A DNA stretch of 27,005 nucleotides from a virus (IMGVR_UViG_3300005511_000863:1-27005); one strand, 5' to 3'. Counted from the first letter of the stretch, positions 1-25,470 are shown. Made by a program: numbers and translations. The notes: generated from the sequence alone by a model not told the origin.

Positions 1-720
1 ATGCAAGACCAGGGTGCGCGGCCCGAAACCGAGTGGGGTGGCGGCAACAAGATCAACAGGAACACGATCGAGCTGGAGGTCGCTGAGCCTGACAGCATGG
101 AGCTGGGAGATGACGACGAGCCATCATCCGAGAATTGGGAATCACGTGCCGGGAGACCGGCCGGCGATGAGGTCGCCCGCCGGGCACGCGCGCGGATTGC
201 GTGCGATCTGCTGCTGGCGCGGCTTTACAAATATCATCCCGACCACGCGCTTGTGCATCTGAGGGGCATCGAGCCGCGCGTCGCTGATCTGGATGTGCCG
301 ATCGCACCGGAAATCATGTGTGCGCAAGACGATGAAAAGCAGGACGACAAAGAGACGACAGTGCAGCAGCTCCGCGGTACGCCGGATATTTCGTTGATCC
401 TGCAGAAGGTCGCAAATTTCTACAGCATATCGGTCGCAGAGCTCTGCTCGCACGAGCGCACCGCAACTCTCGCCGAGTCGCGTCATGTGGCGATGTATCT
501 CGCCCGGAGCATGACTCAATGTTCGCTCAAAGTGATCGGCGCGAGGATGGGGGGACGCGATCACACCACCGTGCATCATTCTCTTCGGAAGGTCGACCGG
601 CTGGTCGCCGCGAAGGCGAGTGCGAAAGCGGAGATCGAGGCGATCGCAAGTCAGATCCGCGCCGCGTTGCAGCTGAAGGCTCACGCGACGGCAAGTGCGT
701 CAGACGGCATCGGGCGGTGA
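1..720 (+). CDS. DnaA domain IV-like DNA-binding protein
   Basis: The C-terminal half (about residues 128-200) reads as the origin-binding domain of DnaA. It has the helix-turn-helix and the signature GGRDHTTVHHS (residues 184-194), close to the DnaA motif GGRDHTTV, preceded by a helix-rich stretch with SRHVAMYLAR. There is no Walker A/B AAA+ domain. The first ~125 residues are acidic and unrecognised, so this is not host DnaA (about 450-500 aa). In DnaA this domain binds DnaA boxes in double-stranded DNA; a stand-alone copy could bind the phage origin, compete with host DnaA, or act as a transcription regulator. The ATG is the first base of the window, so the true start may lie further upstream. 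The next gene follows closely, suggesting one early operon. The domain call is good; the role is inference. Confidence 0.8.
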   Translation: MQDQGARPETEWGGGNKINRNTIELEVAEPDSMELGDDDEPSSENWESRAGRPAGDEVARRARARIACDLLLARLYKYHPDHALVHLRGIEPRVADLDVPIAPEIMCAQDDEKQDDKETTVQQLRGTPDISLILQKVANFYSISVAELCSHERTATLAESRHVAMYLARSMTQCSLKVIGARMGGRDHTTVHHSLRKVDRLVAAKASAKAEIEAIASQIRAALQLKAHATASASDGIGR

Positions 721-773: not shown

Positions 774-1367
774 ATGGTCGGGCGGAAGCGAAAGATAGAC
801 GCATTGCGAAATGCCTCAGGCGTTTCGATCGATCACAAGCGGGCACAACGGCTCGACTACGAAGCGCGGCTCGCGCGCCGGGCGCGCGATCTGGTTGCTG
901 ATGGTGTCAATCCTGCGAATGCGCCCGATCGATTGTCCGGCTTCACGCTTGGGCGGCTGCTGCTGCGCTGGCGCGCCTGCAAAAGCGACCCGAGCGGCCT
1001 GTCGCAGAAGCAGTATGATACCGGGCAGCGGCTTGCCGGCATCATCTGCCGTCATGCCGCCCTGCATGGCTACAGCCTCAATGTCCGGTCGCCGGCCTTC
1101 GTCATCCTCGGAGGCCAGGATTGCTCTCCGTCGCCGGACGAGGAGCGCATCGCGCAGATTCGGGCTGAATTCACGGTTTGCTACGACGCGATCATGCGGG
1201 TCTGCCGCGAGCACGATCTCCGCGCTCGCGATCTGGTCTACGGCGTGTGCGTGCAGAACTGGCCGGTCGGGATGATCACCGATCAATTCGGGCTGCTGCG
1301 ATTGGTGTTGAACGAGGTCGGCGGCGCGCTGCGGGCCATGGACAAGGAGCGGGGCAGGGGCGGATGA
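774..1367 (+). CDS. hypothetical phage protein, early operon
   Basis: A 197-residue protein of unknown function. The start at 774 is chosen because GAGGA lies five bases upstream. An in-frame ATG at 723, three bases after the stop of the DnaA-like gene, would add 17 residues but has only a weak ribosome binding site. The N-terminus is strongly basic (MVGRKRKIDALR and several later Arg-rich stretches), followed by a helical segment with LGRLLLRWR and a C-terminal half with alternating hydrophobic positions, ending in Arg and Gly. The charge pattern and its position after a DNA-binding protein hint at a DNA-related role, but no motif confirms it. It ends in an ATGA overlap with a possible 50-residue ORF. 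Confidence 0.6.
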   Translation: MVGRKRKIDALRNASGVSIDHKRAQRLDYEARLARRARDLVADGVNPANAPDRLSGFTLGRLLLRWRACKSDPSGLSQKQYDTGQRLAGIICRHAALHGYSLNVRSPAFVILGGQDCSPSPDEERIAQIRAEFTVCYDAIMRVCREHDLRARDLVYGVCVQNWPVGMITDQFGLLRLVLNEVGGALRAMDKERGRGG

Positions 1368-1516
1368 GCGCCTCGTCGCTGTCATCGCCGTCGCACGGAC
1401 CGGTATCATCGTCCGTTCTTGTTGGGAGAAGCACAGGATACGTCTGTGCTTCCGTGCGCTTCACTCCACTGCGCAGCGGCTTCCATGTGAATGTGGCGAG
1501 ACGGTTTCCACATTGA
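1364..1516 (+). CDS. possible 50-residue ORF
   Basis: A short frame beginning at an ATG that overlaps the previous stop (ATGA), with a G-rich stretch (GGGGCAGGGGCGG) directly upstream that could act as a ribosome binding site. The peptide is Ser- and Val-rich at the start (MSASSLSSPSHGPVSSS) with no recognisable domain. Its stop overlaps the TTG start of the next frame (TTGA). The overlaps suit phage gene packing, but the composition is weakly protein-like and this could be a chance frame. Confidence 0.25.
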   Translation: MSASSLSSPSHGPVSSSVLVGRSTGYVCASVRFTPLRSGFHVNVARRFPH

Positions 1517-1896
1517 GCCTGGTGGGTTCCAGATCGCCAAAATTCTGCCTCATCCACGGCCACGATCATACATTCAAGACATGGGGACGTGGCGTGCTTG
1601 ATCGATCCAATGCGCGGGCAAACCAACCAGGCCCGCGGGATGTACCTCATCTGCTGGAATGGCATTCCTGGCATTGCGTCGGCCTTGCCGATGCCTGCGA
1701 GAATGCCCGCGTGAAGAAGATCCTGCGTCTTCTCGCGGCCGATCTTGCGATCGAGGCCGAAACGCTCCGCCGGCAATGGCAGGAGCGTGATATGGCCGAG
1801 CTGATGCCTGACGGCGAGCGGTTGCATTTCTTGAGGATCGATATGCGCGGCGATCGCCCGGCGTCGCGGTTGCGGTTTGCGGCTGATCGCGCGTAG
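1513..1896 (+). CDS. hypothetical protein, TTG start
   Basis: A 127-residue frame from a TTG; no in-frame ATG exists before the helical part. The first ~45 residues look irregular. The second half reads as a genuine helical protein: LLEWHSWHCVGLADACENAR, then a Leu/Ala-rich helix KKILRLLAADLAIEAETL. No function is recognised. The start is uncertain, because the frame is open further upstream without a good start codon. The first copy of the repeated element begins about 50 bases after its stop. Confidence 0.45.
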   Translation: MSLVGSRSPKFCLIHGHDHTFKTWGRGVLDRSNARANQPGPRDVPHLLEWHSWHCVGLADACENARVKKILRLLAADLAIEAETLRRQWQERDMAELMPDGERLHFLRIDMRGDRPASRLRFAADRA

Positions 1897-1944
1897 CAGT
1901 GGTTGGCGATCTGTCCCGACGACGCGCCTTGGGGCGAGCGCGAG

Positions 1945-2061
1945 GCAGTGTTGACAGACCTTGCAAACAGCCCACCTCTATTTGACTCCGCGTCCTCGCT
2001 ACGCGATGAACTAATGCAGCATGCGACTTTGTGCCCCGGCCTAAGCGGCCGGGTTTTTCTT
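1945..2061 (+). repeat. repeated promoter/hairpin element, copy A
   Basis: First of four copies. The conserved block TTGACAGACCTTGCAAA begins at 1951 and a second TTGAC at 1982 (31 bases later). TAATGCAGCATGCG follows with its ATG at 2014 (32 bases later). Then comes a hairpin CCCGGCC/GGCCGGG (2035-2041 and 2047-2053, loop TAAGC) with a T-tract, the shape of an intrinsic terminator. The ATG opens a 43-codon frame (2014-2145) starting MQHATLCPG. Its remainder is Cys-rich and unconvincing as a protein. No long gene follows; the next copy begins about 115 bases further on. Confidence 0.85.
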
Positions 2062-2174
2062 TCGGCATGCTGCGAATGCTTGTGCGGCACCGGGCGCTGC
2101 TGGGCCGCTCATGAATTGGAGAGCATCGAACAACATCGCGCATAACACTCGGGCGGCGAATGCCGCAACGGAAA

Positions 2175-2299
2175 GAAAACCGCGCAATGTTGACAGACCT
2201 TGCAAATGGGCCTCGGTGTTTGACATCCAGCGCCCGATGCACGATGGATAAATGCAGCATGCGCTTTTGCGCCCCGGCCCAGCGGCCGGGTTTTATTTT
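2175..2299 (+). repeat. repeated promoter/hairpin element, copy B
   Basis: Second copy. TTGACAGACCTTGCAAA begins at 2190, TTTGACA at 2219, and TAAATGCAGCATGCG has its ATG at 2252. The hairpin CCCGGCC/GGCCGGG (2273-2279 and 2284-2290) is followed by TTTTATTTT. Upstream it shares a short GAAA...GCGCA tract with copy C. The ATG is in frame with the ADP-ribosyltransferase-like gene, so the hairpin would lie within its first 13 codons. Confidence 0.88.
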
Positions 2300-3247
2300 G
2301 CTCGCACGCAAACTGCCGCGGGGCTTCTGCCGTCTCGGCAAACCGCAACGAATCCCAATCCATTTCCGCCACCGAGCCCGCCCGGTTCATCAAGACTGTT
2401 CATGCCTGTTGTGTCTGATGGTGAGCCGGATCGCATCGATCCCTCACAGGAAGCGGAATTGGCACGTATAAAGGCGGCCCGGAGGACGGCCGATACAGTG
2501 CGGCCATTTGGAGGTCGTCGTGAAGGTGAACTGACGCAACTGCAGGAAGATTTAATAGTCCCGAAAACGCCGCTCGATTTTGCGCTGCTCTTTGCCGGCG
2601 GTCCGTTTGGACGTGGCGTCAAGCTTGGTGCTTTGACTCTCGGTGCTTTGCTAAACTCTACTTCCGATGCCCAGGCCGGGCCGCTTACCCGATTCATCGG
2701 AGCGAATTGGGCAGGCCAAGTTGCCAAGGCTCGCCGCGCCGGATTTCATCCCGATCTGTATAGCGCTCATGGTACAGATCACACTCCGATCAGCGCATTT
2801 GATCCAGCGATGCTCGGCACTGGAACCAGAGCACCGCCCGCGCACAAGGGCTTTTGGATGGCGCCCATCGTAGACAATGATGCGGCGATAGCGAATTTCT
2901 TTGCCAAGCTTGCAGCGAATAGAACAGGCGGCCGCCCAGCTATGGTGCCGATTTGGCCCAGGGCCGACAAGCTCCACCGACTGAATTTGGAAGGTCAAGG
3001 ACCGCACGAGATTGCTGAAAATATCGCAGAGTACTGGGACAAAGGCTATGACGCATTGCTTATGGAAAACCACCGTATCAGGCGCGGCCTTAAAGGGCAG
3101 ACTCTCATAGTAAAAACCGCCCCGCAGTTGCGCTTTCCTTGGGCGGAGTTTGACTTGGCGAAACGTCATCTGCCAAATCTTGCTGCCAGTCTGGCGGGCC
3201 TCGACTATTTCGGCGCAAACTATCCTGGCGGCGATTACTTCGAGTAG
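2252..3247 (+). CDS. ADP-ribosyltransferase-like polyvalent-type protein
   Basis: The C-terminal ~160 residues resemble ADP-ribosyltransferase domains found in phage 'polyvalent' proteins. An H-G-T motif (SAHGTDH, His173 from the ATG at 2252) is followed by SAFDPAMLGTG, then HKGFWMA and an Ala/Phe-rich helix. After that comes GYDALLMENH and a terminal strand/FD-type segment ending LAASLAG, which in related domains closes the fold. ARTs move ADP-ribose from NAD+ to a target; a phage could use this against host proteins. An internal hydrophobic patch (GALTLGALL) precedes the domain. The frame starts at the ATG inside repeat copy B (MQHALLRPG). A second ATG at 2402 (MPVVSDGEPDR) may be the real start, although neither has a clear Shine-Dalgarno. 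The domain assignment is from pattern only, and active-site residues other than the His are not certain. Confidence 0.6.
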   Translation: MQHALLRPGPAAGFYFARTQTAAGLLPSRQTATNPNPFPPPSPPGSSRLFMPVVSDGEPDRIDPSQEAELARIKAARRTADTVRPFGGRREGELTQLQEDLIVPKTPLDFALLFAGGPFGRGVKLGALTLGALLNSTSDAQAGPLTRFIGANWAGQVAKARRAGFHPDLYSAHGTDHTPISAFDPAMLGTGTRAPPAHKGFWMAPIVDNDAAIANFFAKLAANRTGGRPAMVPIWPRADKLHRLNLEGQGPHEIAENIAEYWDKGYDALLMENHRIRRGLKGQTLIVKTAPQLRFPWAEFDLAKRHLPNLAASLAGLDYFGANYPGGDYFE

Positions 3248-3303
3248 GATGGCACAACTCTCAACACCGCTTACGCGTGCGGCATAAAGCCCACGCTGGT
3301 TTC

Positions 3304-3636
3304 CTAGGATTCAGTTTTCTTTTCTGGATCCTCGGACTGTGCCAGAGATGTTGCGTGACTGTTTTCCTCGGCTGTCTTTGGTAGCGGGTTCTGTTCTGCC
3401 CATTCCCAATAGTTCTCAATTTCTGAAAGGGGAACGTCCTGGCCTGGGGCCAGTTTGAGGGGAGGATCGTTCGGGCCGCGCGGCGGCGGGTGCTGCAGAA
3501 AGTCGGGAAAAACCCACCGGGGCTGCGGCGCCAATTCTGACGAATCGTTGTTCTGATCAGCTGTTTCGATTTGCTCCAAAAATGTGAGACTTGCGATCAG
3601 TGAAGCTAGGTCTGGGTCTGGGGTTTTCTGTGACAT
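3304..3636 (-). CDS. hypothetical acidic protein on the reverse strand
   Basis: A 110-residue acidic, Pro-rich protein (MSQKTPDPDLASLIASL at the start, LSEIENYWEWAEQNPLP near the end). The residue make-up is natural and unlike the antisense shadows elsewhere. It has no transmembrane segment, signal peptide or recognised domain. It is convergent with the ART-like gene and is one of few reverse-strand genes before 24 kb, so it probably has its own promoter. The ribosome binding site is weak (GGAC, several bases upstream). It may be an independently expressed cargo gene, or a partner of the neighbouring ART-like protein. No function is assigned. Confidence 0.55.
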   Translation of the reverse strand: MSQKTPDPDLASLIASLTFLEQIETADQNNDSSELAPQPRWVFPDFLQHPPPRGPNDPPLKLAPGQDVPLSEIENYWEWAEQNPLPKTAEENSHATSLAQSEDPEKKTES

Positions 3637-3723
3637 GCTATTGTCCGCTGGGCGGCGCTGATTCAGATGCGGTATCCGCTCCGATTGTTTTTAAATATAG
3701 CATGGAAGGCTCAGAGAATCGAT

Positions 3724-3749
3724 CCCTCGCGCCGCTTATGCCGCGAGGG
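3724..3749. repeat. 8-bp inverted repeat before copy C
   Basis: CCCTCGCG (3724-3731) and CGCGAGGG (3742-3749) form a perfect 8-bp stem with a 10-base loop. No T-tract follows on either strand, so it is not a standard intrinsic terminator. It could be an operator or a structural element between the reverse-strand gene and repeat copy C. Confidence 0.45.
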
Positions 3750-3759
3750 TAATCGGGAG

Positions 3760-3886
3760 AAAATTGCGCAGTGTTGACGGACCTTGCAAAGGCAGCTCGG
3801 GCGTTTGACATCCAGCGCCGGATGCGCGACGTATAAATGCAGCATGCGGTTTTGCGCCCCGGCCTAACGAGCCGGGGTTTTGCTTT
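3760..3886 (+). repeat. repeated promoter/hairpin element, copy C
   Basis: Third copy. TTGACGGACCTTGCAAA begins at 3774, TTTGACA at 3804, and TATAAATGCAGCATGCGG has its ATG at 3837. The hairpin uses a shifted stem, CCCCGGC/GCCGGGG (3857-3863 and 3871-3877), with loop CTAACGA, then TTTTGCTTTT. The stem differs from copies A and B but stays fully paired, which points to selection on structure. It lies directly upstream of the portal gene and is the only candidate promoter region close to it. Confidence 0.88.
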
Positions 3887-3974
3887 TCGGCCTGCGCCTC
3901 CACCGCCATCTGCGCCCAGAACTCTATCGCTTCCTGCTCATCAACAGGTTGACCACCACCCATGCCCAAAATGA
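3837..3974 (+). CDS. possible leader peptide coupled to the portal gene
   Basis: A 45-codon frame opening at the ATG of repeat copy C (MQHAVLRPG). It reads through the hairpin and a Pro-rich tail and stops at TGA 3972-3974. That stop overlaps an in-frame portal ATG at 3971 (ATGA). The portal gene has no visible Shine-Dalgarno, so translational coupling from this leader is a possible explanation. The peptide has no recognisable fold, so any function would be regulatory. It may be a chance frame, since the opposite strand also reads openly here. Confidence 0.3.
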   Translation: MQHAVLRPGLTSRGFAFRPAPPPPSAPRTLSLPAHQQVDHHPCPK

Positions 3975-6124
3975 CCGAGCTTGAACTCAAGGCGCTGCTC
4001 GACGCCGAGAAAGCTTCAGCGCTGTCGGCGCCGCAAGCGTCGCGGCTCAGCTCCGACCGCGAGCAAGCGCAGCGCTATTACATCGGCGACATGAGCCGCG
4101 ATATGCCCTCGCTCGAAGGCCGCTCGTCGGCGGTCTCGACCGATGTCGCCGACACCATCGAAGGCCTGATGCCGACCCTGATGGACATTTTCTGCGGCGG
4201 CGACGAGGTGGTGCGGTTCGATCCGGTCGGGCCGGAGGATGTCAAGGCCGCCGAGCAGGAGACCGATTTCGTCAATCACGTCTTCATGCAGAAGAATCCG
4301 GGTTTTCTGATCCTCTACACGTTCATCAAGGATGCGCTGCTTTCCAAGACCGGTATCGTCAAGATCTGGACCGAGGAGGAGGTCAGCGAGGCCCGCGAGA
4401 CCTATTACGACCAGCCCGAGGACATGGCGGCGTTGATCGTCGCCAATCCCGAGCTGGAGGTGGTCGCGCACACTGAACACGACGGCCTGCATGACATCAC
4501 GGTGGTTCAGCGCAAGACCGTCAAGCATCACCGGGTTGCGCCGGTGCCGCCCGAGGAATTCGGCATCTCGCGCAACGCGCGAAGCATCAGGGACGCCGGC
4601 TACGTCTTTCACGAGGTCGAGCGCACCGAAGCCGATCTCATTGCCGAGGGCTATGACGCCGATCAGGTGAAAGACTTGCCGAGTTATACCGCGATCGCGA
4701 CCGGCGAGCGCTGGGCGCGAGACTCTGTAGAGGAGGGCGAGCTCCAGCGCGGCGATAGCGGCCTCAACCGTGCCAACCGCGTCATCCGGGTCACCGAGCA
4801 CTATGTGCGGATGGACTATGACGGGACTGGTCGCGCCAAGCTCTTTCGCGTGACGACGGCCGGGGAGGCTGGCGACATCCTGGTGAAGCAGGGTGAGCCG
4901 CAGGTGGTCGAGATCAACCGCATCCCGATGGCGGCCATGACGCCGATCATCGTGACGCATCGGTTCTTCGGCCGATCGGTCGCCGACCTGGTGATGGATA
5001 TCCAGCGCATCAAGACCGCGCTGATCCGGGGGATGCTCGACAGCTCTTATCTGTCGGTGAACCCGCGAGTCGAGATCGCGGAGTCGCACGCGACTGAGAC
5101 GACACTCGACGACATCCTCACCATGCGGCCCGGTATGCCGATCCGCACCAAGCAGCCAGGTGGGCTGATCTGGCAGCAGGTGCCGTTCGTCGGCGCCGAT
5201 ATGTTGCCGATCATCCAGTTCATGGACACGACGCGGGAATGGCGCACGGGCGTCAGCCGGCAGGGACAGGGCCTCGATCCGGGTGCCTTGCAGAACCAGG
5301 TGGCGACGATCGCCAACCAGATGTTCAACGCCGCCCAGGCCAAGGTGAAGCTCATTGCCCGGATCTTTGCCGAGACCGGCATGCGTGATCTGTTCTCACT
5401 GCTGCATGCCGAGGTTCGCGAGAACGGCGATGCGGCGCAGACAATCCGCTTGCGCAACCAATGGGTGATGGTCGATCCGACCGACTGGCGCGAGCGCAAC
5501 GATCTCACCATCAACGTCGGTCTCGGCAACGGCTCGAAGGCCGAACAGCTTGCACATCTGCAGCTGATCATCGGCGCGCAGAAGGAAGCAATCGCCGCCG
5601 GCATGGTTAGCCCGAAGAATCTTTACGAGTCGGCGAAACAGCTGGTGCGGCTTGCCGGCTACAAGGACGCCGACGTCTACTTCACAGCGCCCGGACGTCC
5701 GCCCGATCCAAACGATCCGACGAGCGCGCCGGTTTCGCCTCCGGCCAATCATCAGGTTCAGGAAGTCCAGCTCAAGGCGCAGCTCGATCGAACTGCCGCC
5801 GAGCATCGGGCCGAGATCGAGAAGATTCAGGCACAGGCCGACATCGCAACGCAGGACCGCAAGACACAGGCCGAACTGGCGCTGATGGAGAAGAAGTTCG
5901 CACTCGAGAGCCAGATCGCGCTGATCGAGGCGCAGCTCAAGCGAGAGGATCATCAGCTCAAGATGCAGGCCCGGCAGCAGACGCATGATGCCGAGATGTC
6001 GCGGACGCAAGACAAGCATCGCGTTGCAATGGCTCAGGCGGACAGGACGGAAAGCCAATCATCCGACGGTCGGACGAGCGACCGCATGAACGACCAGGCA
6101 CATCACAACACGGGGCAGCTATAA
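3962..6124 (+). CDS. portal protein, podovirus head-tail connector type
   Basis: About 720 residues, the size of podovirus portals. The portal forms the dodecameric ring at one capsid vertex through which DNA is packaged and ejected. The N-terminal part has SDREQAQRYYIGDMSRDMPS and a VADTIEGLMPTLMDIF helix typical of this portal type. The middle carries the long core with GRSVADLVMDIQRIKTAL and TGVSRQGQGLDPGALQNQVA. The last ~120 residues are a charged Gln/Lys/Glu-rich coiled coil that fits the portal barrel. Two starts are possible: 3962 (MPKMTEL) and 3971 (MTEL). The second forms an ATGA overlap with the leader frame from repeat copy C, and neither has a ribosome binding site. The stop overlaps the next start (TAATG). 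The terminase gene often found just upstream is absent. Confidence 0.88.
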   Translation: MPKMTELELKALLDAEKASALSAPQASRLSSDREQAQRYYIGDMSRDMPSLEGRSSAVSTDVADTIEGLMPTLMDIFCGGDEVVRFDPVGPEDVKAAEQETDFVNHVFMQKNPGFLILYTFIKDALLSKTGIVKIWTEEEVSEARETYYDQPEDMAALIVANPELEVVAHTEHDGLHDITVVQRKTVKHHRVAPVPPEEFGISRNARSIRDAGYVFHEVERTEADLIAEGYDADQVKDLPSYTAIATGERWARDSVEEGELQRGDSGLNRANRVIRVTEHYVRMDYDGTGRAKLFRVTTAGEAGDILVKQGEPQVVEINRIPMAAMTPIIVTHRFFGRSVADLVMDIQRIKTALIRGMLDSSYLSVNPRVEIAESHATETTLDDILTMRPGMPIRTKQPGGLIWQQVPFVGADMLPIIQFMDTTREWRTGVSRQGQGLDPGALQNQVATIANQMFNAAQAKVKLIARIFAETGMRDLFSLLHAEVRENGDAAQTIRLRNQWVMVDPTDWRERNDLTINVGLGNGSKAEQLAHLQLIIGAQKEAIAAGMVSPKNLYESAKQLVRLAGYKDADVYFTAPGRPPDPNDPTSAPVSPPANHQVQEVQLKAQLDRTAAEHRAEIEKIQAQADIATQDRKTQAELALMEKKFALESQIALIEAQLKREDHQLKMQARQQTHDAEMSRTQDKHRVAMAQADRTESQSSDGRTSDRMNDQAHHNTGQL

Positions 6125-6405
6125 TGCAGTACTTCGGAACCGGCCGGCTTGGCACGCATCAGAGCGCGGCCTATACCACCACCGCAGGAACGATCACCTC
6201 CGCGGTCGGATCACAGACCTACAAGGTTCGTATCGTCTGCACGACAGACGCCTTCGTGAAGGTCGGCGACGCTCCGACGGCGACCGCCTCCGACCCGCTG
6301 TTCCCGGCAAATTCGGTGGAATACGTCACCATCACGCCAGGGCAGAAGGTCTCGGCAGTGCAATCCGCTGCAGGCGGCACGCTCCACGTGACAGAGGTGG
6401 TCTGA
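6124..6405 (+). CDS. small beta-rich virion-type protein
   Basis: A 93-residue protein with alternating hydrophobic and small residues, reading as an all-beta fold: TYKVRIVCTTDAFVKVG, then VEYVTITPGQKVSAVQSA and TLHVTEVV. Small proteins of this look are common in phage structural operons beside portal or capsid genes; the exact role is not known here. It overlaps the portal stop by one base and the SGNH gene start by one base (TGATG), so the three are co-translated. It could be a minor head or decoration-type component. Confidence 0.65.
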   Translation: MQYFGTGRLGTHQSAAYTTTAGTITSAVGSQTYKVRIVCTTDAFVKVGDAPTATASDPLFPANSVEYVTITPGQKVSAVQSAAGGTLHVTEVV

Positions 6406-7550
6406 TGCCACGGTTCGGCGGCCTCGGCAGAAATTTCAATCGTCTGGGAGGCCCAGGAACGCCGGGGCCATTTGGATACGCTAATCTTGGTGCCGGGTTT
6501 CTCTCGAGTTGGAAGACAAAATTAGATCAGGTCAGGGCAGGCACGTCTCATGCGGTGGTGCTATGCCTTGGCGGCAGCACCATGCGCGGTGTCGGCGTCG
6601 GAACGGGCGCAAACTTCGATACCGGCGCCGATCCATTCGCCACTCCAAAGCTTCTGGCGGACGCGCTTGTCGCCAATGGCATTACCGCCATCCACAATGG
6701 CGCATGCGGAGGCAATCTCGGGCCGACCGGCACCGATAGCCGTGTTGTCCAGAACTCCGGCTGGAATCACGACTCAGGCTTTATCACGGTTGGCGGCTGT
6801 AACGGTGGAACATGTTATAACAACACGACTACGACCAATGCCTTGTCGTTTGCGCCGACTGGACAATTCGACACCATCGTAACTTGGTATGTCAGGGCAT
6901 CGGGTCGCGCCACCTTCACGGTTGACGTGGACGGCGGCGCTCCGCTTGGTTCGATTAATTCAGACGGCACTCCCACGGCATTTCTGTCAAACACGCAAAC
7001 CTGTGCCCTCGGAACGCATACGGTCAACTACAAGCGCACCGGAGTCGGGGGCGGCGCAAACGTCGCCATGATCGATACCTACAATTCCTCGGTCAAGGCC
7101 GTAAGAGTCCTCAACTGCGGCGCGTCCAGCGCGACGGTTAGCGATATTGCCACCGCGACGGCCGTGTACTCATCTCTAAATGCCATTGCGGCCATGGCCC
7201 CGGATCTCGTGGTCTGTGCGGTCGGCGGCAACGACTGCTTGGCATCGACCTCTGAGAGCTCCTACAAAACCGATCTTCAGTCCATCGTGACTGCGGTTGG
7301 GCCGGGCAAAATCATCCTGGCGTCCCATACGCCGGTTAATGCAAGCGGAGCCGGCGGTGAGGCTGCGCGGCAGACATATACGCGATATACGCGGGATGTT
7401 GCAGTCACAAACAATGTGCCGTTCGTGGACTTGACGGCACTGCAAGGCACCTTTTCCGACAATAACGCGGCCGGTCTCATGGCGAACGGCAACCACATGA
7501 ACGACTACCACAGCATCACCAATTATCTGGCGCGGGCGGTGATCGTCTAA
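6405..7550 (+). CDS. SGNH/GDSL-type hydrolase, possible esterase
   Basis: 381 residues with the blocks of SGNH hydrolases. Block I is LCLGGSTMRG with candidate nucleophile Ser58 (GGS in place of GDS). Block II is HNGACGGN (97-104) and block III is VGGNDC (Asn276). Block V is NGNHMNDYH with His364. The Asp normally three residues before the His is Asn361. Between blocks II and III lies an insertion of about 100 residues (130-230) rich in Thr, Gly and Val, resembling a beta-sandwich. Such enzymes remove acyl groups, often acetyl from sugars. The first 30 residues are Gly/Pro-rich and could be a virion anchor. It is joined by overlaps to the portal operon and to the methyltransferase that follows. 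It could be a virion-borne glycan esterase; activity is uncertain because of the Asn. Confidence 0.7.
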   Translation: MPRFGGLGRNFNRLGGPGTPGPFGYANLGAGFLSSWKTKLDQVRAGTSHAVVLCLGGSTMRGVGVGTGANFDTGADPFATPKLLADALVANGITAIHNGACGGNLGPTGTDSRVVQNSGWNHDSGFITVGGCNGGTCYNNTTTTNALSFAPTGQFDTIVTWYVRASGRATFTVDVDGGAPLGSINSDGTPTAFLSNTQTCALGTHTVNYKRTGVGGGANVAMIDTYNSSVKAVRVLNCGASSATVSDIATATAVYSSLNAIAAMAPDLVVCAVGGNDCLASTSESSYKTDLQSIVTAVGPGKIILASHTPVNASGAGGEAARQTYTRYTRDVAVTNNVPFVDLTALQGTFSDNNAAGLMANGNHMNDYHSITNYLARAVIV

Positions 7551-8338
7551 TGACCATCGCATTTGTTCTCGCTAGCTCGGATTGCGGTCCGATCATCGTC
7601 AATCGTCTGGACTATAACACGTCGTTCAATGGTCGAATGTATGGTGTTGGCTATCAGATTATGGAGAAGGGCGCCTACGACCCGGACGAGGTCGAGACTA
7701 TCCTGGCCCTGCTTCCTTGGCTGAGGAAATATCGGGGCGATGGGGTCGTTGCGCTGGATTGCGGCGCCAATATCGGTGTTCATACGCTCAACTGGTCCGC
7801 GCTAATGAAGGGATGGGGCAGCGTTATCGCTGTCGAAGCACAAGAGCGGATATTCTATGCATTGGCCGGCAACATCACGCTGCACAACGCGTTCAACGCC
7901 CGCGCTATCTGGGCTGCGGTGAGCAACGTAGATGGATTTGTCGATATTCCAGAGCCGGACTATCGTAAGCCGTCGAGCTTCGGCAGTTTCGAACTGAAGG
8001 AGCGGCTTGGGAACGAGAATATCGGCCAGCCGATCGACTACAGCAGACCCCAGTCCCGGGTTCGGAGCATGGCGATCGATTCGGCCGGGCTCGATCGCGT
8101 TGATCTGATCAAGCTGGATATCGAGGGCATGGAGCTCGAGGCGCTCGCAGGCGCCGCGAATATCATCAAAGCGCATCGCCCGGTGCTCTTCATCGAGACC
8201 ATCAAAGTTGACAAGGTTCACCTTGAGAGGATCCTGCGCGATCTCGGCTATCGTTGCTACGCGCACGGTATGAGCGTGCTCTGCGTTCACGCCGACGATC
8301 CTATTGTCGATCACGTGCGAATGGAGAAGGGAACATGA
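7550..8338 (+). CDS. FkbM family methyltransferase
   Basis: 262 residues with the SAM-binding fold of FkbM methyltransferases. Motif I is VVALDCGANIGVHT (about residues 66-79), an acidic strand end follows in VIAVEAQ, and VDLIKLDIEGMELEALAG (about 184-201) is the family hallmark. The end VLFIETIK is also typical. These enzymes add methyl groups to hydroxyls, usually on sugars or glycosylated products, using S-adenosylmethionine in the cytoplasm. The start overlaps the SGNH stop (TAATG) and the end overlaps the TPR-glycosyltransferase start (ATGA). The trio therefore looks like a glycan-modifying cassette inside the virion operon. The target, whether a phage structural glycan or host polysaccharide, is unknown. 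Confidence 0.85.
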   Translation: MTIAFVLASSDCGPIIVNRLDYNTSFNGRMYGVGYQIMEKGAYDPDEVETILALLPWLRKYRGDGVVALDCGANIGVHTLNWSALMKGWGSVIAVEAQERIFYALAGNITLHNAFNARAIWAAVSNVDGFVDIPEPDYRKPSSFGSFELKERLGNENIGQPIDYSRPQSRVRSMAIDSAGLDRVDLIKLDIEGMELEALAGAANIIKAHRPVLFIETIKVDKVHLERILRDLGYRCYAHGMSVLCVHADDPIVDHVRMEKGT

Positions 8339-9741
8339 TCGACACCGTCGCGCGATACAAGTCATTAGCCGAGGCACTACTGCGCGAGCCCGATAATCCC
8401 GAGCATCTGGTCAGCCAGTTCGCGTTGCTGTCCGACGACGGTGATCGGTCCAATGCAGCGCACTACCTCTACCTGGCGCAACGGGCCTACAGTGAGGCGC
8501 CGGACAATATCAATATCGCGTTCAACTATGGCTCGGCGTTGCAAAGAGCGGGCAAATTCGCCGACGCCAAAGATATCTATCGCTGGTGTGTTGCCCACGC
8601 ACCGGAAGAGTGGCTGACGCGGTGTCTGCATCATCTCGGCGTCGCGTATCGGGCGCTCGGCCAGAATGAACGCGCCATCGAGTACTACGATCGAGCGATT
8701 TTGCGAGATCCTGATCCCAACTATCGGAAGGACCGCGCTCTGGCCAAGATGGCGAATGGCAGGCTCCGCGAAGGGCTGGAAGAGTTCGAGTGCCGGCGCG
8801 AGATCGCCGAGCTGCGGCTTGCCGCGAACAATGGAGAGCTGGTCGCGCAGCAGCGTCTGCCGGACGGCGTAGTCCATTGGCGCGGCGAGGATCTCACCGG
8901 CAAAACACTCGTCGTCTATCACGAGGAAGGGACCGGCGACTTCATTCAGTTCTGCCGGTTCATTCCACGACTCCGCGACACAGGCGTTGCGAGGATATTG
9001 CTGACGGGTCCGGTATCGGGAGCTCTTGAATTGGTAGCAGACCAGATCGCGGTGGACGGCATTGTTCCGCTTGCGGGACCTCTTGGAGGCGACTACGTCA
9101 CGGGCTCGATGTCGTTCCCGTGGCGGCTCGGTATCGACTATAGAGATGTCTTGGGCAGCCGGTACATGGACGCTATACCGGCCACGTTTCCTCGCCGCGG
9201 GCGCCTTAACGTTGGTCTGGTGTGGCGCGGCAATCCGGCTTACGGGATGGACGTCCATCGTTCGATGCCGTTCAGCGAACTATGCCCGTTGTTCGATCTG
9301 AACGGCGCGGCTTTCTATTCGCTGCAAGTTGGGCCTGCGTCGGCGGAGTTTGGTCGCCTCGGTTTTGATGGCTTTGTCGCCGACCTTGCGCCCTTTGCCC
9401 GAAATTGGCGAGCGACAGCGCGGCTAATCAAGCGCCTCGATGTGGTCGTGACAGTCGATACGGCCGTGGCGCATCTGGCGGGTGCGCTCGGCGTTCCGGT
9501 CCTGATGATGGTCACTAAGGCCAGCGATTGGCGTTGGGATCGCAATAGTGAAAAGACGATCTGGTACGATTCGATGCGGGTCTACCGTCAGAACGACCAG
9601 GACGATTGGCGCCCTTGCGTGCAGCGGGTGCGAAAGCGTTTGAAGGAGATTCTCGATGAGCCAGGACGAGATTCAAGAGACCGGGCAGGACAAGATACAG
9701 GTGACAATAAATCGCGGGCTTCGAGCCACTCAGTTGCTTGA
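8335..9741 (+). CDS. TPR protein with GT9/GT41-like glycosyltransferase domain
   Basis: The N-terminal ~170 residues contain tetratricopeptide repeats (NYGSALQRAGKFADAKDIY; HLGVAYRALGQNERAIEYY). The C-terminal half ends in the motif VVTVDTAVAHLAGALGVPVL (about residue 370), characteristic of heptosyltransferase/GT9-like and TPR-glycosyltransferase proteins, with LNVGLVWRGNPAYGMD before it as the start of the second Rossmann half. TPRs probably recognise the acceptor; the enzyme would transfer a sugar from a nucleotide sugar. The ATG at 8335 is chosen for its ATGA overlap with the methyltransferase and the GGAGAAGGG upstream; the frame is open further 5'. The last ~28 residues (after KEILDE) are low-complexity and overlap the next gene by 86 bases, so the original stop may have been lost. 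Confidence 0.8.
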   Translation: MIDTVARYKSLAEALLREPDNPEHLVSQFALLSDDGDRSNAAHYLYLAQRAYSEAPDNINIAFNYGSALQRAGKFADAKDIYRWCVAHAPEEWLTRCLHHLGVAYRALGQNERAIEYYDRAILRDPDPNYRKDRALAKMANGRLREGLEEFECRREIAELRLAANNGELVAQQRLPDGVVHWRGEDLTGKTLVVYHEEGTGDFIQFCRFIPRLRDTGVARILLTGPVSGALELVADQIAVDGIVPLAGPLGGDYVTGSMSFPWRLGIDYRDVLGSRYMDAIPATFPRRGRLNVGLVWRGNPAYGMDVHRSMPFSELCPLFDLNGAAFYSLQVGPASAEFGRLGFDGFVADLAPFARNWRATARLIKRLDVVVTVDTAVAHLAGALGVPVLMMVTKASDWRWDRNSEKTIWYDSMRVYRQNDQDDWRPCVQRVRKRLKEILDEPGRDSRDRAGQDTGDNKSRASSHSVA

Positions 9742-9964
9742 AAACGAGGCTTTTAAAGATGCGACTGGCGCGCTCGCCGAGCAACTGATGGACCGCTGGC
9801 GGGTTTCAAGCGATCCGGTCGAGCGAGAACGAATTTGGCTATCGGTGAACCTGCTTGACCAGATCAAAGCCAAGCTCGCGATTGCTGCCAACAACGGCAA
9901 GCTTGCCAAGAAGGAGCTCGACGAGCTGGTCACCGGGCGGCGATCGCGTTTTGGACTGGCCTGA
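9656..9964 (+). CDS. hypothetical small helical phage protein
   Basis: A 102-residue, mostly helical protein with a strong ribosome binding site (AAGGAG, seven bases before the ATG). The core LAEQLMDRWRVSSDPVERER and the Lys/Ala-rich helix after it read as a compact helical bundle. No function is recognised. It sits just before the scaffold and capsid genes, where phages often encode small head-assembly factors. The clear ribosome binding site and natural composition show that this gene, not the C-terminal tail of the glycosyltransferase, is the real coding frame in the 86-base overlap. Repeat copy D starts right after its stop. Confidence 0.65.
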   Translation: MSQDEIQETGQDKIQVTINRGLRATQLLENEAFKDATGALAEQLMDRWRVSSDPVERERIWLSVNLLDQIKAKLAIAANNGKLAKKELDELVTGRRSRFGLA

Positions 9965-9971
9965 GGTTCCG

Positions 9972-10086
9972 AGCATGTTGATGGACCTTGTAAACACCTG
10001 CTCCGTCTTTGACAGAGATCGGCAAATCGGTCAGTAATAAATGCAGCATGAGGTTTTGCGTCCCGGTCCAGGCGGCCGGGATTTTG
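9972..10086 (+). repeat. repeated promoter/hairpin element, copy D
   Basis: Fourth copy, the most diverged, 6 kb from copy C. TTGATGGACCTTGTAAA begins at 9978, TTTGACA at 10008, and TAATAAATGCAGCATGAGG has its ATG at 10041. The hairpin is CCCGGTC/GGCCGGG (10062-10068 and 10074-10080), with a G-T wobble keeping the stem, followed by ATTTT. The spacing between blocks (31 and 32) matches the other copies. The ATG is the only plausible start of the scaffold-like gene. Confidence 0.85.
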
Positions 10087-11111
10087 TTACCAGCACTGAC
10101 AGCACTCCGCAGGACGTGTGCGCTGCGACGGCGCCCCCTGCAAGACAATCCGAGCCGCAAGGCGAAGACGCCACCCTCCCGCAGGAGATCACCACTCACG
10201 CGGAAGCCCCTGGCGAGACGCACGAGGCGGGCCCGGCCGCGAGGCCGTCCATCCCGCCTCCGAGGTCTTGGACGAAGGACGCAAGAGCGCACTGGCAGAC
10301 CTTGCCTCACGAGACGCAAACCTATGTTGCGGCTCGCGAACAGGAACGCGAGCGCGAATTGCGCCGGAGCCAAAATGAGGTTGCTGCGAAGCTCAAGAGC
10401 TTGGCAAGTGAAGAGCAAGCGGCCGAACAGGCAAGGCGACGGTACGAGGCCGCACTACCGGCCTTTCTGCGAGCACTGCAGAGTCTCCATGCGACCGCAT
10501 TCGCGGACATCGCTTCTGTGGTAGATGCGAACAAACTCGCAGTGGAAGACCCGCAGCGGTTCAAGCAATGGCGAGCCCATCGAGAGCAGATGGAAACGCT
10601 GGAGCTTGAGTTGCGACAGGCGACGCAGCGTCAGGCACAAGACAGCCAGGCAAGATGGGCCGCGTTCACGACCGAACAGGACCGGCTTTTCCTGCTGAAA
10701 GCGCCCGAGCTGTCAGATCCTGCGCGTATGCGGAAAGCAATTGTTGCTATTGTTGGCGCTCTCAAGAACATTGGATTTGACGAAAACGAGCTGGAGCAGG
10801 CGTGGACAGGAGAGCGGTCTGTCTCTCTTCGCGACCATCGCATCCAGAGGCTGGTTTTCGAGAGCGTTCGATACCGCGAGCAGATCGACGTCACGGCAGC
10901 CGCAAATGGCAACGTGCTCGATTTTCCGTCGCCTGTCCGGCGGCTCGCTGCAGCCTCCGCTCAAAAGGCCCTCGCGCTCGACAAGGGCGCGATGGCGTTC
11001 ATCCGAACCATCGAACAGCAACTCGCAACTGCAAGCGGGCTTGCCGCGGTGAAGCTCGGTGCAATTCTCGCCGCGCTGAAGCAGCACGTCCCGCCAGCTG
11101 TAAAGGCTTAA
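10041..11111 (+). CDS. scaffold-like head assembly protein
   Basis: 356 residues, strongly helical and charged, placed just before the major capsid gene as scaffolds are. After a disordered, Pro/Ala/Thr-rich N-terminus comes PPRSWTKDARAHWQTLP (about 74-90), the Trp/Leu pattern seen before the coiled coil in several phage scaffold-like proteins. A long Glu/Arg/Gln-rich coiled coil runs to about residue 220, and the C-terminus is Ala/Lys-rich. Scaffolds guide capsid assembly and leave before packaging. The only ATG before the conserved part is the one in repeat copy D, giving MQHEVLRPG at the N-terminus and an internal hairpin with T-tract in codons 8-15. A GTG at 10116 is possible but has AGGA too close. 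The gene ends two bases before the capsid start. Confidence 0.7.
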   Translation: MQHEVLRPGPGGRDFVTSTDSTPQDVCAATAPPARQSEPQGEDATLPQEITTHAEAPGETHEAGPAARPSIPPPRSWTKDARAHWQTLPHETQTYVAAREQERERELRRSQNEVAAKLKSLASEEQAAEQARRRYEAALPAFLRALQSLHATAFADIASVVDANKLAVEDPQRFKQWRAHREQMETLELELRQATQRQAQDSQARWAAFTTEQDRLFLLKAPELSDPARMRKAIVAIVGALKNIGFDENELEQAWTGERSVSLRDHRIQRLVFESVRYREQIDVTAAANGNVLDFPSPVRRLAAASAQKALALDKGAMAFIRTIEQQLATASGLAAVKLGAILAALKQHVPPAVKA

Positions 11112-12103: not shown

Positions 12104-12134
12104 GAGGCCGCCTTTGGGCGGCCTCTTTCTTTTC
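12104..12134 (+). terminator. intrinsic terminator after the capsid gene
   Basis: A 9-bp perfect stem GAGGCCGCC/GGCGGCCTC (12104-12112 and 12117-12125) with a four-base loop TTTG, followed by TTTCTTTTC. It lies between the capsid stop and the Shine-Dalgarno of the next gene. Confidence 0.9.
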
Positions 12135-16514: not shown

Positions 16515-16554
16515 GACTGGGCTTACTAACCCTCCTAATCGACTAACGTCCTAA

Positions 16555-16582
16555 CCCCGGCCAAGCCGGGGTGCTTTTTTTT
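16555..16582 (+). terminator. intrinsic terminator before the tail fibre gene
   Basis: A 7-bp perfect stem CCCCGGC/GCCGGGG (16555-16561 and 16565-16571), three-base loop CAA, then TGC and eight Ts. The stem is the same as in repeat copy C, but no TTGAC boxes or ATG-CAG-CAT are present here, so this is a plain terminator. Confidence 0.9.
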
Positions 16583-16596
16583 GAGGAGCTGTCTTC

Positions 16597-18150
16597 ATGG
16601 CCACCGCCGGTGTCCCACTCTGGTCAACCACCGCTGCGACCAATGCGACCGCCGATCCAGCGGTGAACTGGGCCGAAGGCATGGCCCCGTCCGCGGTGAA
16701 TGATTCTGCTCGCGCCATGATGGCGTCGGTCGCGAAATGGCGTGATGACTTGTCTGGCATCACTACTACAGGATCGTCGACAGCCTATGCTGTGACGACA
16801 GGCGCCACGTTTGCGTCGGCAGCCGATATGTCCGGGATGATCTTTTCTATGATCCCGCATACCACCTCGGGTGCGTCCCCCACGCTATCCGTGGATGGTC
16901 TCACGGCTCGTGCCATAAATGAATCGACAGGCGTTGCCATGACCGCCGGCGCGTTGCTCGCCGGCACGCCATACCTTGTCAAATATATCCATTCGTCAAC
17001 AGAGTTCATCCTGCTCGGCCGTACCAATATCTTCACAACGATCAAGGCGACCAGCAACATCATTGCTGCGCCTGGAACGACAGCCGGGCGTCCGAGCGCA
17101 GTTGCGGGCGGCTTTCGCTTTAACACGGATACAGGCCTTCCTGAGTTCAGCGACGGAGCAAGCTGGTTCCCGTTGATCACGACACTAGCTGGTGCTCAGA
17201 CGCCCTATGGCGCTATCATCAACGGAACGATCACTGCGACCGCGAACAGTCCAGTTTCGAATGCCATCAAGTTTGAGCTGAAAACGCTGGCAGGCAATAC
17301 GCCATCTGCGTCTGATCCGGTGCTGATTGCATTCCGGAACTCAACGGCAGGAATCGGAAGTTACGTCTATAAAACTGTGACCGCAGCTGTATCCCTCACG
17401 ATTTCGTCGGGCTCCCAACTTGGAGTGAGCACCAATAACGTTGCATTCAAGCTTTGGCTTGTTCTCTTCAACGACGCCGGGACCGTGAAGCTTGGCGTCA
17501 TCAACTGTGTTTCAGGAACTAACATATATCCGCTTGGGAAACTCCCGGTCGCCCAGGCGACTGCAGAAGGCGGAGCTGGGGCCGCCGACAGCACTCAGAC
17601 GTTTTACACTGATGTCGCCATTTTATCTGACACACCATACGCTATTCTTGGATATATATCCTACGAATCCGGCTTGGCGTCGGCCGGTGCATGGGCCGTA
17701 GTTCCTACGCGCATTCAGCTTTTTGGCGCCGGCATTCCCCTGCCTGGAACAACTATTCAAACAGTAACATCGTCCACAACTAGCAACACGTCTACCAACA
17801 CTGGCTCATATGTTGCGACGGCTCTCACGGCGAGCATTTCACCGACGAGTGCCGCAAATCTCGTAGATGTTCGTGCTTTTGGATCATCGGGCAGCAACGG
17901 CTCAACAGACGCAGCAGTGATCCAGCTCAGGCGAGGCACTTCGACAGCATTCGGCCCTGAGATTGCCTTCAGGAACTCAAACAACGTGACGGGCTATGCA
18001 TCTGCCGCTGTCGAGGCTTGGGATGCACCAGGGACTACATCGTCAACCCTCTATACGGTCTATCTGAAAAGCTCCGGAACTTCGAATACTGCTCAGTTCC
18101 CTCAGAGCACCTTCGGAGCCTATATGACGGTACAAGAAGTGATGACCTAA
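16597..18150 (+). CDS. tail fibre protein
   Basis: 517 residues with an N-terminal region typical of podovirus and siphovirus fibres: TTAATNATADPAVNWAEGMA, then PSAVNDSARAMMA (about residues 9-41). A long beta-rich shaft follows, dominated by Thr, Ser, Ala, Gly and Asn, and a C-terminal part (STSNTSTNTGSYVATALTAS onward) probably forms the receptor-binding tip. The ribosome binding site GAGGAG is nine bases before the ATG, just after a terminator, so the gene may have its own promoter. It shows more A/T-rich and mixed codon use than the capsid genes, as is common for exchanged host-range genes. Confidence 0.8.
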   Translation: MATAGVPLWSTTAATNATADPAVNWAEGMAPSAVNDSARAMMASVAKWRDDLSGITTTGSSTAYAVTTGATFASAADMSGMIFSMIPHTTSGASPTLSVDGLTARAINESTGVAMTAGALLAGTPYLVKYIHSSTEFILLGRTNIFTTIKATSNIIAAPGTTAGRPSAVAGGFRFNTDTGLPEFSDGASWFPLITTLAGAQTPYGAIINGTITATANSPVSNAIKFELKTLAGNTPSASDPVLIAFRNSTAGIGSYVYKTVTAAVSLTISSGSQLGVSTNNVAFKLWLVLFNDAGTVKLGVINCVSGTNIYPLGKLPVAQATAEGGAGAADSTQTFYTDVAILSDTPYAILGYISYESGLASAGAWAVVPTRIQLFGAGIPLPGTTIQTVTSSTTSNTSTNTGSYVATALTASISPTSAANLVDVRAFGSSGSNGSTDAAVIQLRRGTSTAFGPEIAFRNSNNVTGYASAAVEAWDAPGTTSSTLYTVYLKSSGTSNTAQFPQSTFGAYMTVQEVMT

Positions 18151-20494: not shown

Positions 20495-20992
20495 GCCGTC
20501 TGTGCCCGCCTTTTCATTGAAAACTGCGTATCCAGCAAAGGAGCAGCCACATGGCTGGCCGTAACTCGCGGACGCTGCCGGGCAGCGGAATTCTCGGTGG
20601 GGTTACAATTAGCACTGACGATGCGAATTCGGGTGCCCCCGAAACTGAATTCGAGTCGCCGTGGGGCCGAGCGCTGCGTGAAGCAGTTGAGCGGCACACA
20701 GGCGTTAGTGCCAGTAGTCTCAGGCTTTGACCGACCGGTGGCGGCAGCCGCCTGCGCCGCCGTAGATGTCGCAGAAGCGGACGATCGGGCCTGAGCCATA
20801 TTATGCGTTGCATCCCGACGACATGTATCCGGCCGTCAGAATCGGTCGCGCGCTCATCAACCACTACGCCGACTACTTCGATCCGTGGACCTACGACGCG
20901 CAAGGCCGCCGCGTGGCCGATACGCCTGCGGCTTATACGCCGAACGCCGCCGGGAAATTGCCGCCGACGCGCAAGCCGGAATGGTGGCCGCT
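20495..20992 (+). pseudogene. degenerate upstream copy of the metallopeptidase gene start
   Basis: This stretch repeats the 5' part of the gene that begins at 21066, including its ribosome binding region (CAAAGGAGCAGCC before the ATG). The first frame, from 20551, matches at MAGRNSRTLPGSGILGG and ALREAVER but ends at TGA 20728-20730. After a shortened spacer and a TAG, homology resumes at 20766 (MSQKRTIGPEPYYAL; NHYADYFDPWTYDAQGRR) and continues to about 20992. The downstream copy has 58 more bases in between. From 20766 the frame stays open into the second copy, so a fused 581-residue reading is possible, but there is no ribosome binding site at 20766. Best seen as a tandem duplication with the first copy decaying. 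Confidence 0.7.
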
Positions 20993-21065
20993 TGTCCGCC
21001 GCGTACGGCGCCAGCCGTCTGTGCGCCTTTCATCGAAACAGTGCATCAAACAAAGGAGCAGCCCC

Positions 21066-22511
21066 ATGGCCGGCCCCAACTCATGGATATTGCCCGGTAA
21101 CGGCATTCTCGGCGGCGTGTACGTTGGACCACCAAGACCTGACGATCGCAATTCGGAGCCTGAAACGCCTTGGGCGAGGGCTCTGCGTGAGGCGATGGAA
21201 AGGCAGCCGCCCGGTGAAGCCGAGCGCCTGGGGACGGTGGCCGAGCAGATTCGCGCAGGTGCGAATTCCGGCAATCCGTTGGCGCGTCCGGCACAGGCTT
21301 TGGTCAACTGGATGCGGCAGCCGTCTCCGCCACCGCAAATGTCGCAGAAGCAGATGATCGGGCCAGCGCCATACTACGCGCTGGATATCGACGACCGGTA
21401 TCCGAATGCGAAAATCGGGCGCGCGATCATCAACCACTACGCCGACTACTTGGACCCATGGACCTATGACGCGCAGGGGCGTCGCGTGATCGACACGCCT
21501 GCGGCCTATACGCCGAACAACGTCGGAAAACTGCCAGAGACTGAGAAGCCGTGGTGGTGGCCGATGGTCGGGGGCGTCGATCTCGGCTCGAATTTTGTCG
21601 GGCTGGGAGCGGGGACCAATCTGGCCAAAGCGGCGACGGTTGGCGGAAGGGCGGCTTTCGCCGCGCCAAAGGCTGCAGTTGCCGAAGCCGGGATGACCGG
21701 CAAGCTGCTCAACGCGGTCCGTGAAGGTCGGCTTGCGGAGCTTGCGAGCGAAGGCGCCGAAACGTTGGCAAGCAGGTGGGCGAGCATGTATAATCCTCCA
21801 GCCAAAACGCCTCGACCGTTCGAGGCTGATTATCCGCGGGGAGCGCCTGCCGATGCCGAAGGACGACTCATCCAAGACATCGAAGGCCGACCCCTCACAG
21901 CCCGGCACGTCGTGGGTCGACAAGTTTATGGCGGAACAGACGTTGCCTTACCGCAAGCGGAACTTCCCGCAGTGGCGGAGGGATCGGCTGGCGCGGTCAT
22001 TACGGACGTTGCGCCGCGAACGCTCGGAAAAGACCTCGGCCGAGTCGTAAAAACAACAGATCGGCGCTCCGGTAATTCGGAGTATGAAATTTGGGTGCGC
22101 CGCGGCTTGAGCGCACGCGATGTGCCTTTGGTTACTGCGCATGAAGTGTCTCATTTGATTGATGACTTGGCCGGAAAAATTCCAACGGACGGCCTTTCTC
22201 GCGAACTCTACCAAGTCTACAACACCCTCAACACCGGCAAAGAGCGGACGCGGAATCTGACGAGGCCGCGAGATATTGGCTATAGCGAAAGCGAAGAGCC
22301 GGGTGAATTGATGGCCGAAGCGGTCCGCGCCTATATGTGGGACCCGAACTACCTCAAGACTGTTGCGCCCAAGACCGCGGCGAGGATTCGCGAGTTTGTA
22401 AATGCGAACCCGCAGCTTTCGAAGGTTATTCAGTTCAACGCGATCGGAGGCGCGGTCCCGTTCATACAAGGGCAGCAACGGAATGCGAGCGGCGTCGAGG
22501 ATAGGCAGTGA
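21066..22511 (+). CDS. HExxH metallopeptidase-like polyvalent protein
   Basis: 481 residues from the ATG at 21066, which has AAAGGAG nearby. The N-terminal third carries LPGNGILGG, ALREAMER and NHYADYLDPWTYDAQGRR, also present in the decayed upstream copy. A Gly/Ala-rich hydrophobic stretch (about 175-220) could insert in a membrane. The C-terminal domain has a zinc-peptidase motif AHEVSHLIDD (His359, Glu360, His363) and a candidate third ligand in GELMAEAVRAYMWDP (Glu414 or Glu418). It ends in the Arg/Asn-rich helix typical of metallopeptidase-like domains in phage polyvalent proteins. Such proteins may be ejected with DNA and act in the host. Substrate unknown. Small ORFs follow at once and could encode partners. 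Confidence 0.65.
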   Translation: MAGPNSWILPGNGILGGVYVGPPRPDDRNSEPETPWARALREAMERQPPGEAERLGTVAEQIRAGANSGNPLARPAQALVNWMRQPSPPPQMSQKQMIGPAPYYALDIDDRYPNAKIGRAIINHYADYLDPWTYDAQGRRVIDTPAAYTPNNVGKLPETEKPWWWPMVGGVDLGSNFVGLGAGTNLAKAATVGGRAAFAAPKAAVAEAGMTGKLLNAVREGRLAELASEGAETLASRWASMYNPPAKTPRPFEADYPRGAPADAEGRLIQDIEGRPLTARHVVGRQVYGGTDVALPQAELPAVAEGSAGAVITDVAPRTLGKDLGRVVKTTDRRSGNSEYEIWVRRGLSARDVPLVTAHEVSHLIDDLAGKIPTDGLSRELYQVYNTLNTGKERTRNLTRPRDIGYSESEEPGELMAEAVRAYMWDPNYLKTVAPKTAARIREFVNANPQLSKVIQFNAIGGAVPFIQGQQRNASGVEDRQ

Positions 22512-25387: not shown

Positions 25388-25470
25388 GTCCTTCTGTGCC
25401 AAATCTTGCTGCATCGTGTTCGCGCTTTTCACCGGGTCCCTCCTGACTTGAGCTTTCATCGGAGCTTCAA

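Follow-up and report, generated by a model that had tools for sequence, protein, structure and literature searches.

Four copies of a phage-specific regulatory element before late genes of a soil phage, with a possible link to GafYZ-type control

The virus record IMGVR_UViG_3300005511_000863 of IMG/VR, from a soil phage, spans 27,005 bases (this whole stretch is called the window here) and carries, between positions 1945 and 10090, four copies of a short element with two TTGAC-like boxes, an ATG and a GC hairpin followed by a T tract. The locus raises the question of what such a repeated element does for the phage. From our analyses, we conclude that the four copies are a real, phage-specific, multicopy regulatory element, and that it is a new version of late promoter/antitermination sites, with a possible link to GafYZ. 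The best explanation, which we favour with moderate confidence, is that each copy combines a late promoter with a promoter-proximal terminator, and that a GafYZ-like pair of proteins brings about both activation and antitermination. The copies and their parts are as follows.

1945-2063, plus strand: copy A; box 1 at 1951-1967, TTTGAC at 1981-1986, AATGCAGCATG at 2013-2023, hairpin at 2035-2053 (nhmmer E 8e-34)
2184-2301, plus strand: copy B, preceding a moron-like gene; box 1 at 2190-2206, TTTGAC at 2219-2224, AATGCAGCATG at 2251-2261, hairpin at 2273-2290 (nhmmer E 7.5e-35)
3769-3886, plus strand: copy C, preceding the portal gene; box 1 at 3774-3790, TTTGAC at 3804-3809, AATGCAGCATG at 3836-3846, hairpin at 3857-3877 (nhmmer E 1.5e-35)
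9974-10090, plus strand: copy D, overlapping the start of the scaffold gene; box 1 at 9978-9994, TTTGAC at 10008-10013, AATGCAGCATG at 10040-10050, hairpin at 10060-10082 (nhmmer E 2.7e-33)

Because the same four copies built the nhmmer profile, these E-values show only that the set is coherent and that no fifth copy is present within the 27,005-base window. The four copies claimed in the original prediction are borne out by seven further ones in two related phages, which puts the repetition far beyond chance; pairwise identities among the 11 are 59-89%. These phages, L128 (93%) and L127 (85%), are the only close portal relatives among 258 viral loci related to the window through the portal gene, and they hold three and four window-type copies, respectively (E 2e-23 to 5e-33 with the window profile). 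Each also holds a terminator-only remnant before its portal gene. All 11 copies are co-directional with the late genes and have the layout TTGA..GA..TTGcAA, 12-13 bases, TTTGAC, 26 bases, AATGCAGCATG, GC hairpin and T tract. GTTGA, GA, TTG.AA, TTTGAC, AATGCAGCATG, TTTG and the hairpin core are invariant among them, and the ATG is kept in every one. The two spacings reported earlier hold, the distance from TTGAC to TTGAC being 31, 30, 31 and 31 bases in copies A to D and the gap from TTTGAC to AATGCAGCATG exactly 26 bases in all 11 copies; about three helical turns between the boxes are consistent with protein contacts. The coordinates first given were right overall, except that copy B begins approximately 9 bases later, and two readings had to be corrected: the first box is not TTGAC in every copy, since copy D reads TTGATGGACCTTGTAAA, and copy A reads CTAATGCAGCATG rather than TAAATGCAGCATG. 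Box 1 forms a partial TTG-N10-CAA dyad, with 49 half-site matches out of 88 where 23.5 would be expected, in copies that are not independent of each other; the 26-base spacer, where a GafZ-type site would lie, had no significant dyad at the single centre examined (43 against 36.4 expected, fraction 0.11). All four L127 copies have TTGAA in box 1, compared with mostly TTGAC in the window phage and L128, which hints at a concerted change.

Pattern scans of viral contigs detected the full layout in no phage beyond the window, L127 and L128. One full-layout pattern gave extra matches, which were not inspected singly, the downstream-half pattern matched L127 and L128 only, and those checked among the matches listed for the exact pattern TTGAYNGACCTTGNAAA were due to chance. 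The layout is missing from all 385 alphaproteobacterial genomes sampled, and a scan of genome contigs gave three matches, all due to chance, with a pattern blind to the TTGAA boxes of L127. A general rhizobial repeat was rejected on the absence from these 385 genomes and on the lack of single copies in plasmids or phage records. The statement that no named family has this layout stands for Rfam, which gave no match at gathering score in the window, but the layout does resemble a known device of late promoter, promoter-proximal terminator and antiterminator, as in lambda Q or GafYZ. Copies A, B and C matched the anti-hemB model (RF02837) at 16.7-23.4 bits, below its gathering score of 49.5. This likeness came from the GC hairpin and T tract, other parts of the model fitted poorly, and the candidate was rejected.

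The four element hairpins are the top four terminator-like sites in positions 1380-10300, where 14 such sites were found compared with 6.9 ± 2.6 in shuffled sequences. Their stems vary as originally described, with a different 7-bp stem in copy C and a G-T wobble in copy D, where a U-A pair also arose by compensatory change. Across the alignment of all 11 copies, 93% of the stem cells are paired and two of the eight stem pairs show two-sided changes (C-G has become U-A in copy D, and G-C has become A-U in one copy of L127), a result matched by 10 of 500 shuffles. This covariation is real and supports a maintained stem, but it is thin. The T tracts of the window-type copies, called class I below, are good. 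Two more terminator-like hairpins with T tracts, at 12104-12125 (3' of the capsid gene) and 16554-16572 (before 16597), are separate from the element.

Among the roles first put forward for the element, a phage-specific promoter/attenuator fits best and is partly supported by the single orientation, the position at operon heads, the fixed spacing, the strongest hairpins of the region and the recurrence of the set in two related phages. From the copies, their spacing, orientation, positions and hairpins, together with a DnaA-domain gene and a remote DUF6456 similarity, we infer promoter activity, termination, binding and antitermination in the following way. Box 1 would be the activator site, an imperfect TTG-N10-CAA dyad approximately 30 bp upstream, TTTGAC the -35 element of a promoter with a non-canonical -10, and AATGCAGCATG a conserved initial transcribed stretch, with an intrinsic terminator beginning about 10-20 bases past the likely start. 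Without the phage regulators, the polymerase would fail to start or would make a short RNA of about 40-50 bases. The GafY-like protein would bind box 1, and the GafZ-like protein would load onto the polymerase at the promoter, leading to read-through of the hairpin into the late genes. Since the element stands ahead of the moron, portal and scaffold genes alike, one regulator pair could turn on every late block. The two candidate regulators are encoded as follows.

1-720, plus strand: GafY-like protein with a C-terminal DnaA domain IV helix-turn-helix (PF08299, E 3.5e-24)
774-1367, plus strand: remote DUF6456/GafZ-like protein (hmmsearch with a custom profile, E 7.6e-5; hhalign, E 2.3e-4)

In Caulobacter, the gene-transfer-agent cluster is activated by GafZ together with GafY, a homologue of DnaA domain IV. 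The antiterminator of the two is GafZ, with a binding element between -35 and -10; GafY binds upstream, where it makes contact with RpoD (PMC11150451, PMC9632790). GafA of Rhodobacter is the fused GafY/GafZ form, and retrieves proteins annotated as DUF6456 (PMC9638019). The 1-720 product is a candidate activator binding box 1; a DnaA-domain-IV gene is also found in L128, L145, L175 and OP596614. The 774-1367 product is a candidate antiterminator. A custom profile of phage and alphaproteobacterial DUF6456 proteins matched it at the E-value given above, the next window protein being at 0.26, and its hhalign E-value compares with at least 0.14 for 20 shuffles and at least 0.15 for six other window proteins. 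BLASTP against the DUF6456-like protein of L166 gave E 2e-4, and both proteins begin with VGRKRK. Since smaller DUF6456 profiles scored less well (E 0.0087 and 0.03), this homology is regarded as remote and not certain. Close homologues of the 774-1367 product were found only in L128 among the viral contigs, and none in phage records or the 385 genomes; neither this nor the other upstream genes matched the lambda Q family in PHROGs, Pfam or NCBIfam. DUF6456-like genes are present in 10 portal relatives (L144, L145, L166, L167, L170, L172, L173, L191, L196 and OP596614). Nine of these have the gene upstream of, and on the same strand as, the portal gene; the L144 gene lies on the opposite strand. 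The DUF6456-like (GafZ/GafA-like) gene of OP596614, at 16651-17184, is annotated only as hypothetical.

The arrangement resembles GafYZ of the Caulobacter crescentus gene-transfer agent in having a DnaA-domain-IV gene followed by a (remotely) DUF6456-like candidate gene, virus-structure genes as proposed targets, putative terminators that would have to be bypassed and a poor core promoter. It differs in its several compact cassettes with the putative terminator right behind the predicted promoter rather than behind the first gene, and in the position of box 1, near -35 instead of about -120; no IHF site came up here, no search aimed at such sites having been made. Lambda Q acts at pR'-tR' through the Q binding element; lambda has a single such site, where a good promoter is followed by tR' after about 190 bases. 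The proposed late promoter, short terminated leader RNA and antiterminator loading at promoter DNA are common to both, whereas the window has four sites, a poor promoter and a hairpin within about 20 bases of the likely start.

The proposal is also supported by unrelated multicopy modules at equivalent places in portal relatives. Upstream of portal genes in these relatives, three further classes were recognised by eye and pattern; all are multicopy, unrelated in sequence to the window element, and precede terminase, portal or scaffold genes. Class II (L149-L163) consists of TTGACG, 17 bases, TAGGAGAAAATCCACAGTTGGAATT and a hairpin, in outline TTGACG-N17-TAGGAG-leader-hairpin, and precedes the terminase large-subunit gene in L163 (phrog_2). 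Class III (L146) reads TTTGACA...GATAATTCGG...AATTGCGCCCGGCC hairpin. Class IV (L132-L142, L188-L193 and L164) reads TTGACT..TGTAAC..GAATCTT.TATAAA, followed by a structured leader; it is a good promoter with -35 and -10 boxes 17 bases apart and a conserved GTAAC..GAATCTT motif between them, and it precedes the portal gene and also sits between the portal and scaffold blocks. All genuine matches of a two-strand scan were on the late-gene strand, and, counted by hand, the hairpin of classes I-III begins 43-46 bases past TTGAC. Copy numbers and positions were observed directly; a common plan across the classes is an interpretation, because they were recognised by eye and pattern. Duplicated minus-strand genes lie between modules in L162 (628-1566 and 3456-4400) and L146 (5638-6030 and 6454-6849), as moron-like cassettes multiplied with the module.

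It is possible, but distinctly less probable than our explanation for the window itself, that GafYZ-type activation and antitermination is the general late switch of alphaproteobacterial phages with SU10 portals. Its target would be a compact cassette copied to the late operon heads, with a sequence replaced wholesale between lineages together with the regulator, and copy D would have turned into the coding start of the scaffold gene. Late control is known in few phages beyond the enterobacterial models, and the cassette supplies defined, repeated candidate sites for a GafYZ-like pair. If true, gene-transfer-agent regulation would be linked to ordinary phages, and the unrelated cassettes at the same genomic places would form a natural series on changes in antiterminator specificity.

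The position of copy D before the scaffold gene is kept in all three phages. In each of them, the scaffold frame opened by its ATG crosses the hairpin without a stop or frameshift, a stop codon lies directly or one codon 5' of this ATG, and the only other early start common to the three is a TTG inside the element. No Shine-Dalgarno sequence was found at the scaffold start in copy D. With its ATG opening a frame that continues across the hairpin in three phages, copy D seems to have two roles, being a control element and also the place where a coding sequence begins.

Several observations weigh against late promoters under GafYZ-like control. No canonical sigma-70 promoter was detected in any of the four copies; the sequence 17 bases past TTGACA is GATGTA-like and a better -10 candidate, TATMAA, lies at 21 bases, neither being decisive. 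The copy D hairpin falls within what appears to be coding sequence, and its counterparts in L127 and L128 are weaker. The 774-1367 product misses the Pfam DUF6456 model, its homology to GafZ resting on custom profiles, and its AlphaFold model, at pLDDT 43, was unusable and left out. Finally, the class II and III contigs searched, which are fragments, yielded no DUF6456 gene. Given that the element has no canonical sigma-70 promoter, its two TTGAC boxes are not to be read as two -35 boxes: box 1 lacks a -10 at a distance of 16-18 bases, and the one accompanying the second box is weak. A sigma-54 promoter, to which a resemblance to TTGnC-N5-TTGCA would point, was rejected by eye on the spacing and the misfit of the -24 GG.

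The main rival explanation, which we consider doubtful, does without antitermination: the copies would be activator-dependent late promoters, with box 1 binding the activator and the hairpin acting as a weak pause, an insulator or an RNA-stabilising 5' structure. Late promoters that depend on an activator only are known from P2 Ogr and Mu C, where several per phage have a common upstream activator box and poor core elements. The window would share the multiple late promoters, the upstream activator box and the poor core, but the P2 and Mu promoters have no built-in terminator, and no Ogr or C protein was seen in the window. This rival is favoured by the position of box 1, about 50-66 bases before the likely start, which is usual for an activator site, by its partial dyad, by the poor core promoter, by the interrupted T tracts of class II and by the lack of a simple terminator in class IV. 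It is opposed by the good T tracts of class I and by the strong hairpin kept 43-46 bases past TTGAC in classes I-III despite their unrelated sequences.

Three further explanations, namely small RNA genes, recombination borders and leader peptides, rank below such activator-only promoters in likelihood. A promoter-like box followed by a terminator is the layout of a small RNA gene, and AATGCAGCATG is invariant in all 11 copies, as might be expected if the copies encoded a family of short regulatory RNAs, terminated after about 40-50 bases, that act in trans from intergenic gaps. We find this improbable: the copies always precede late operon heads co-directionally, some of the best conserved DNA lies 5' of any transcript, no Rfam match reached threshold, and separate RNA functions are unlikely because there are up to four near-identical copies per phage. 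Even less probable are cassette borders, that is, repeats flanking moron genes that spread by homologous recombination and have no regulatory role of their own. Copies B and C do flank a gene that is swapped in relatives, the terminator-only remnants lie before the portal gene in L127 and L128, and the L146 modules flank opposite-strand genes. Recombination, however, needs no exact spacing, invariant blocks or orientation, copy D stays before the scaffold gene in the three phages, and unrelated sequences occupy the same places in other phages. As the moron genes between copies are exchanged among relatives, the repeats may also serve recombination, a role that could coexist with the GafYZ-like explanation. 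Very improbable is a leader-peptide attenuator, in which the ATG, invariant in 11 copies and the scaffold start of copy D in three phages, would start a peptide MQHxxLxPG... whose translation prevents the hairpin, since there is no Shine-Dalgarno sequence, the predicted peptides diverge in length and sequence past the hairpin, and as a general function it was rejected on the absence of such an ATG from class II and III modules.

The genes next to the copies are as follows.

1579-1896, plus strand: small conserved protein immediately 5' of copy A, with counterparts in L127 and L128 (tblastn 88% and 73%)
2402-3247, plus strand: moron-like gene between copies B and C; its frame can extend back to the copy B ATG at 2252
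3962-6124, plus strand: portal protein of SU10 type (PF23899, E 1.2e-185)
10041-11111, plus strand: head scaffolding protein (phrog_3927, E 9e-13); its frame opens at the copy D ATG

Three of the copies had been placed before ART-like, portal and scaffold genes, which is right for the latter two; the ART-like label, given to the gene that follows copy B, is weak (Pfam ART-PolyVal E 0.14, below the cut-off). The moron-like gene at 2402-3247 is swapped for a different gene in L127 and L128, and tblastn found no relative. Between the portal and scaffold genes, a moron-like block at 6405-9741 encodes a GDSL hydrolase, an FkbM methyltransferase and a TPR/glycosyltransferase; the GDSL gene is missing in the relatives. 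Further downstream, a 284-base direct repeat (20721-21004 and 21294-21577, 78% identical) and an 83-base repeat (20521 and 21036) mark apparent duplicated genes. Two paralogous minus-strand open frames, at 24488-25480 and 26226-26996, have common repeats of 268 and 246 bases (72-75% identical), and an imperfect 38-base inverted repeat, TGACACCG...TGGTGTCA, lies at 24330-24413 between adjacent open frames.

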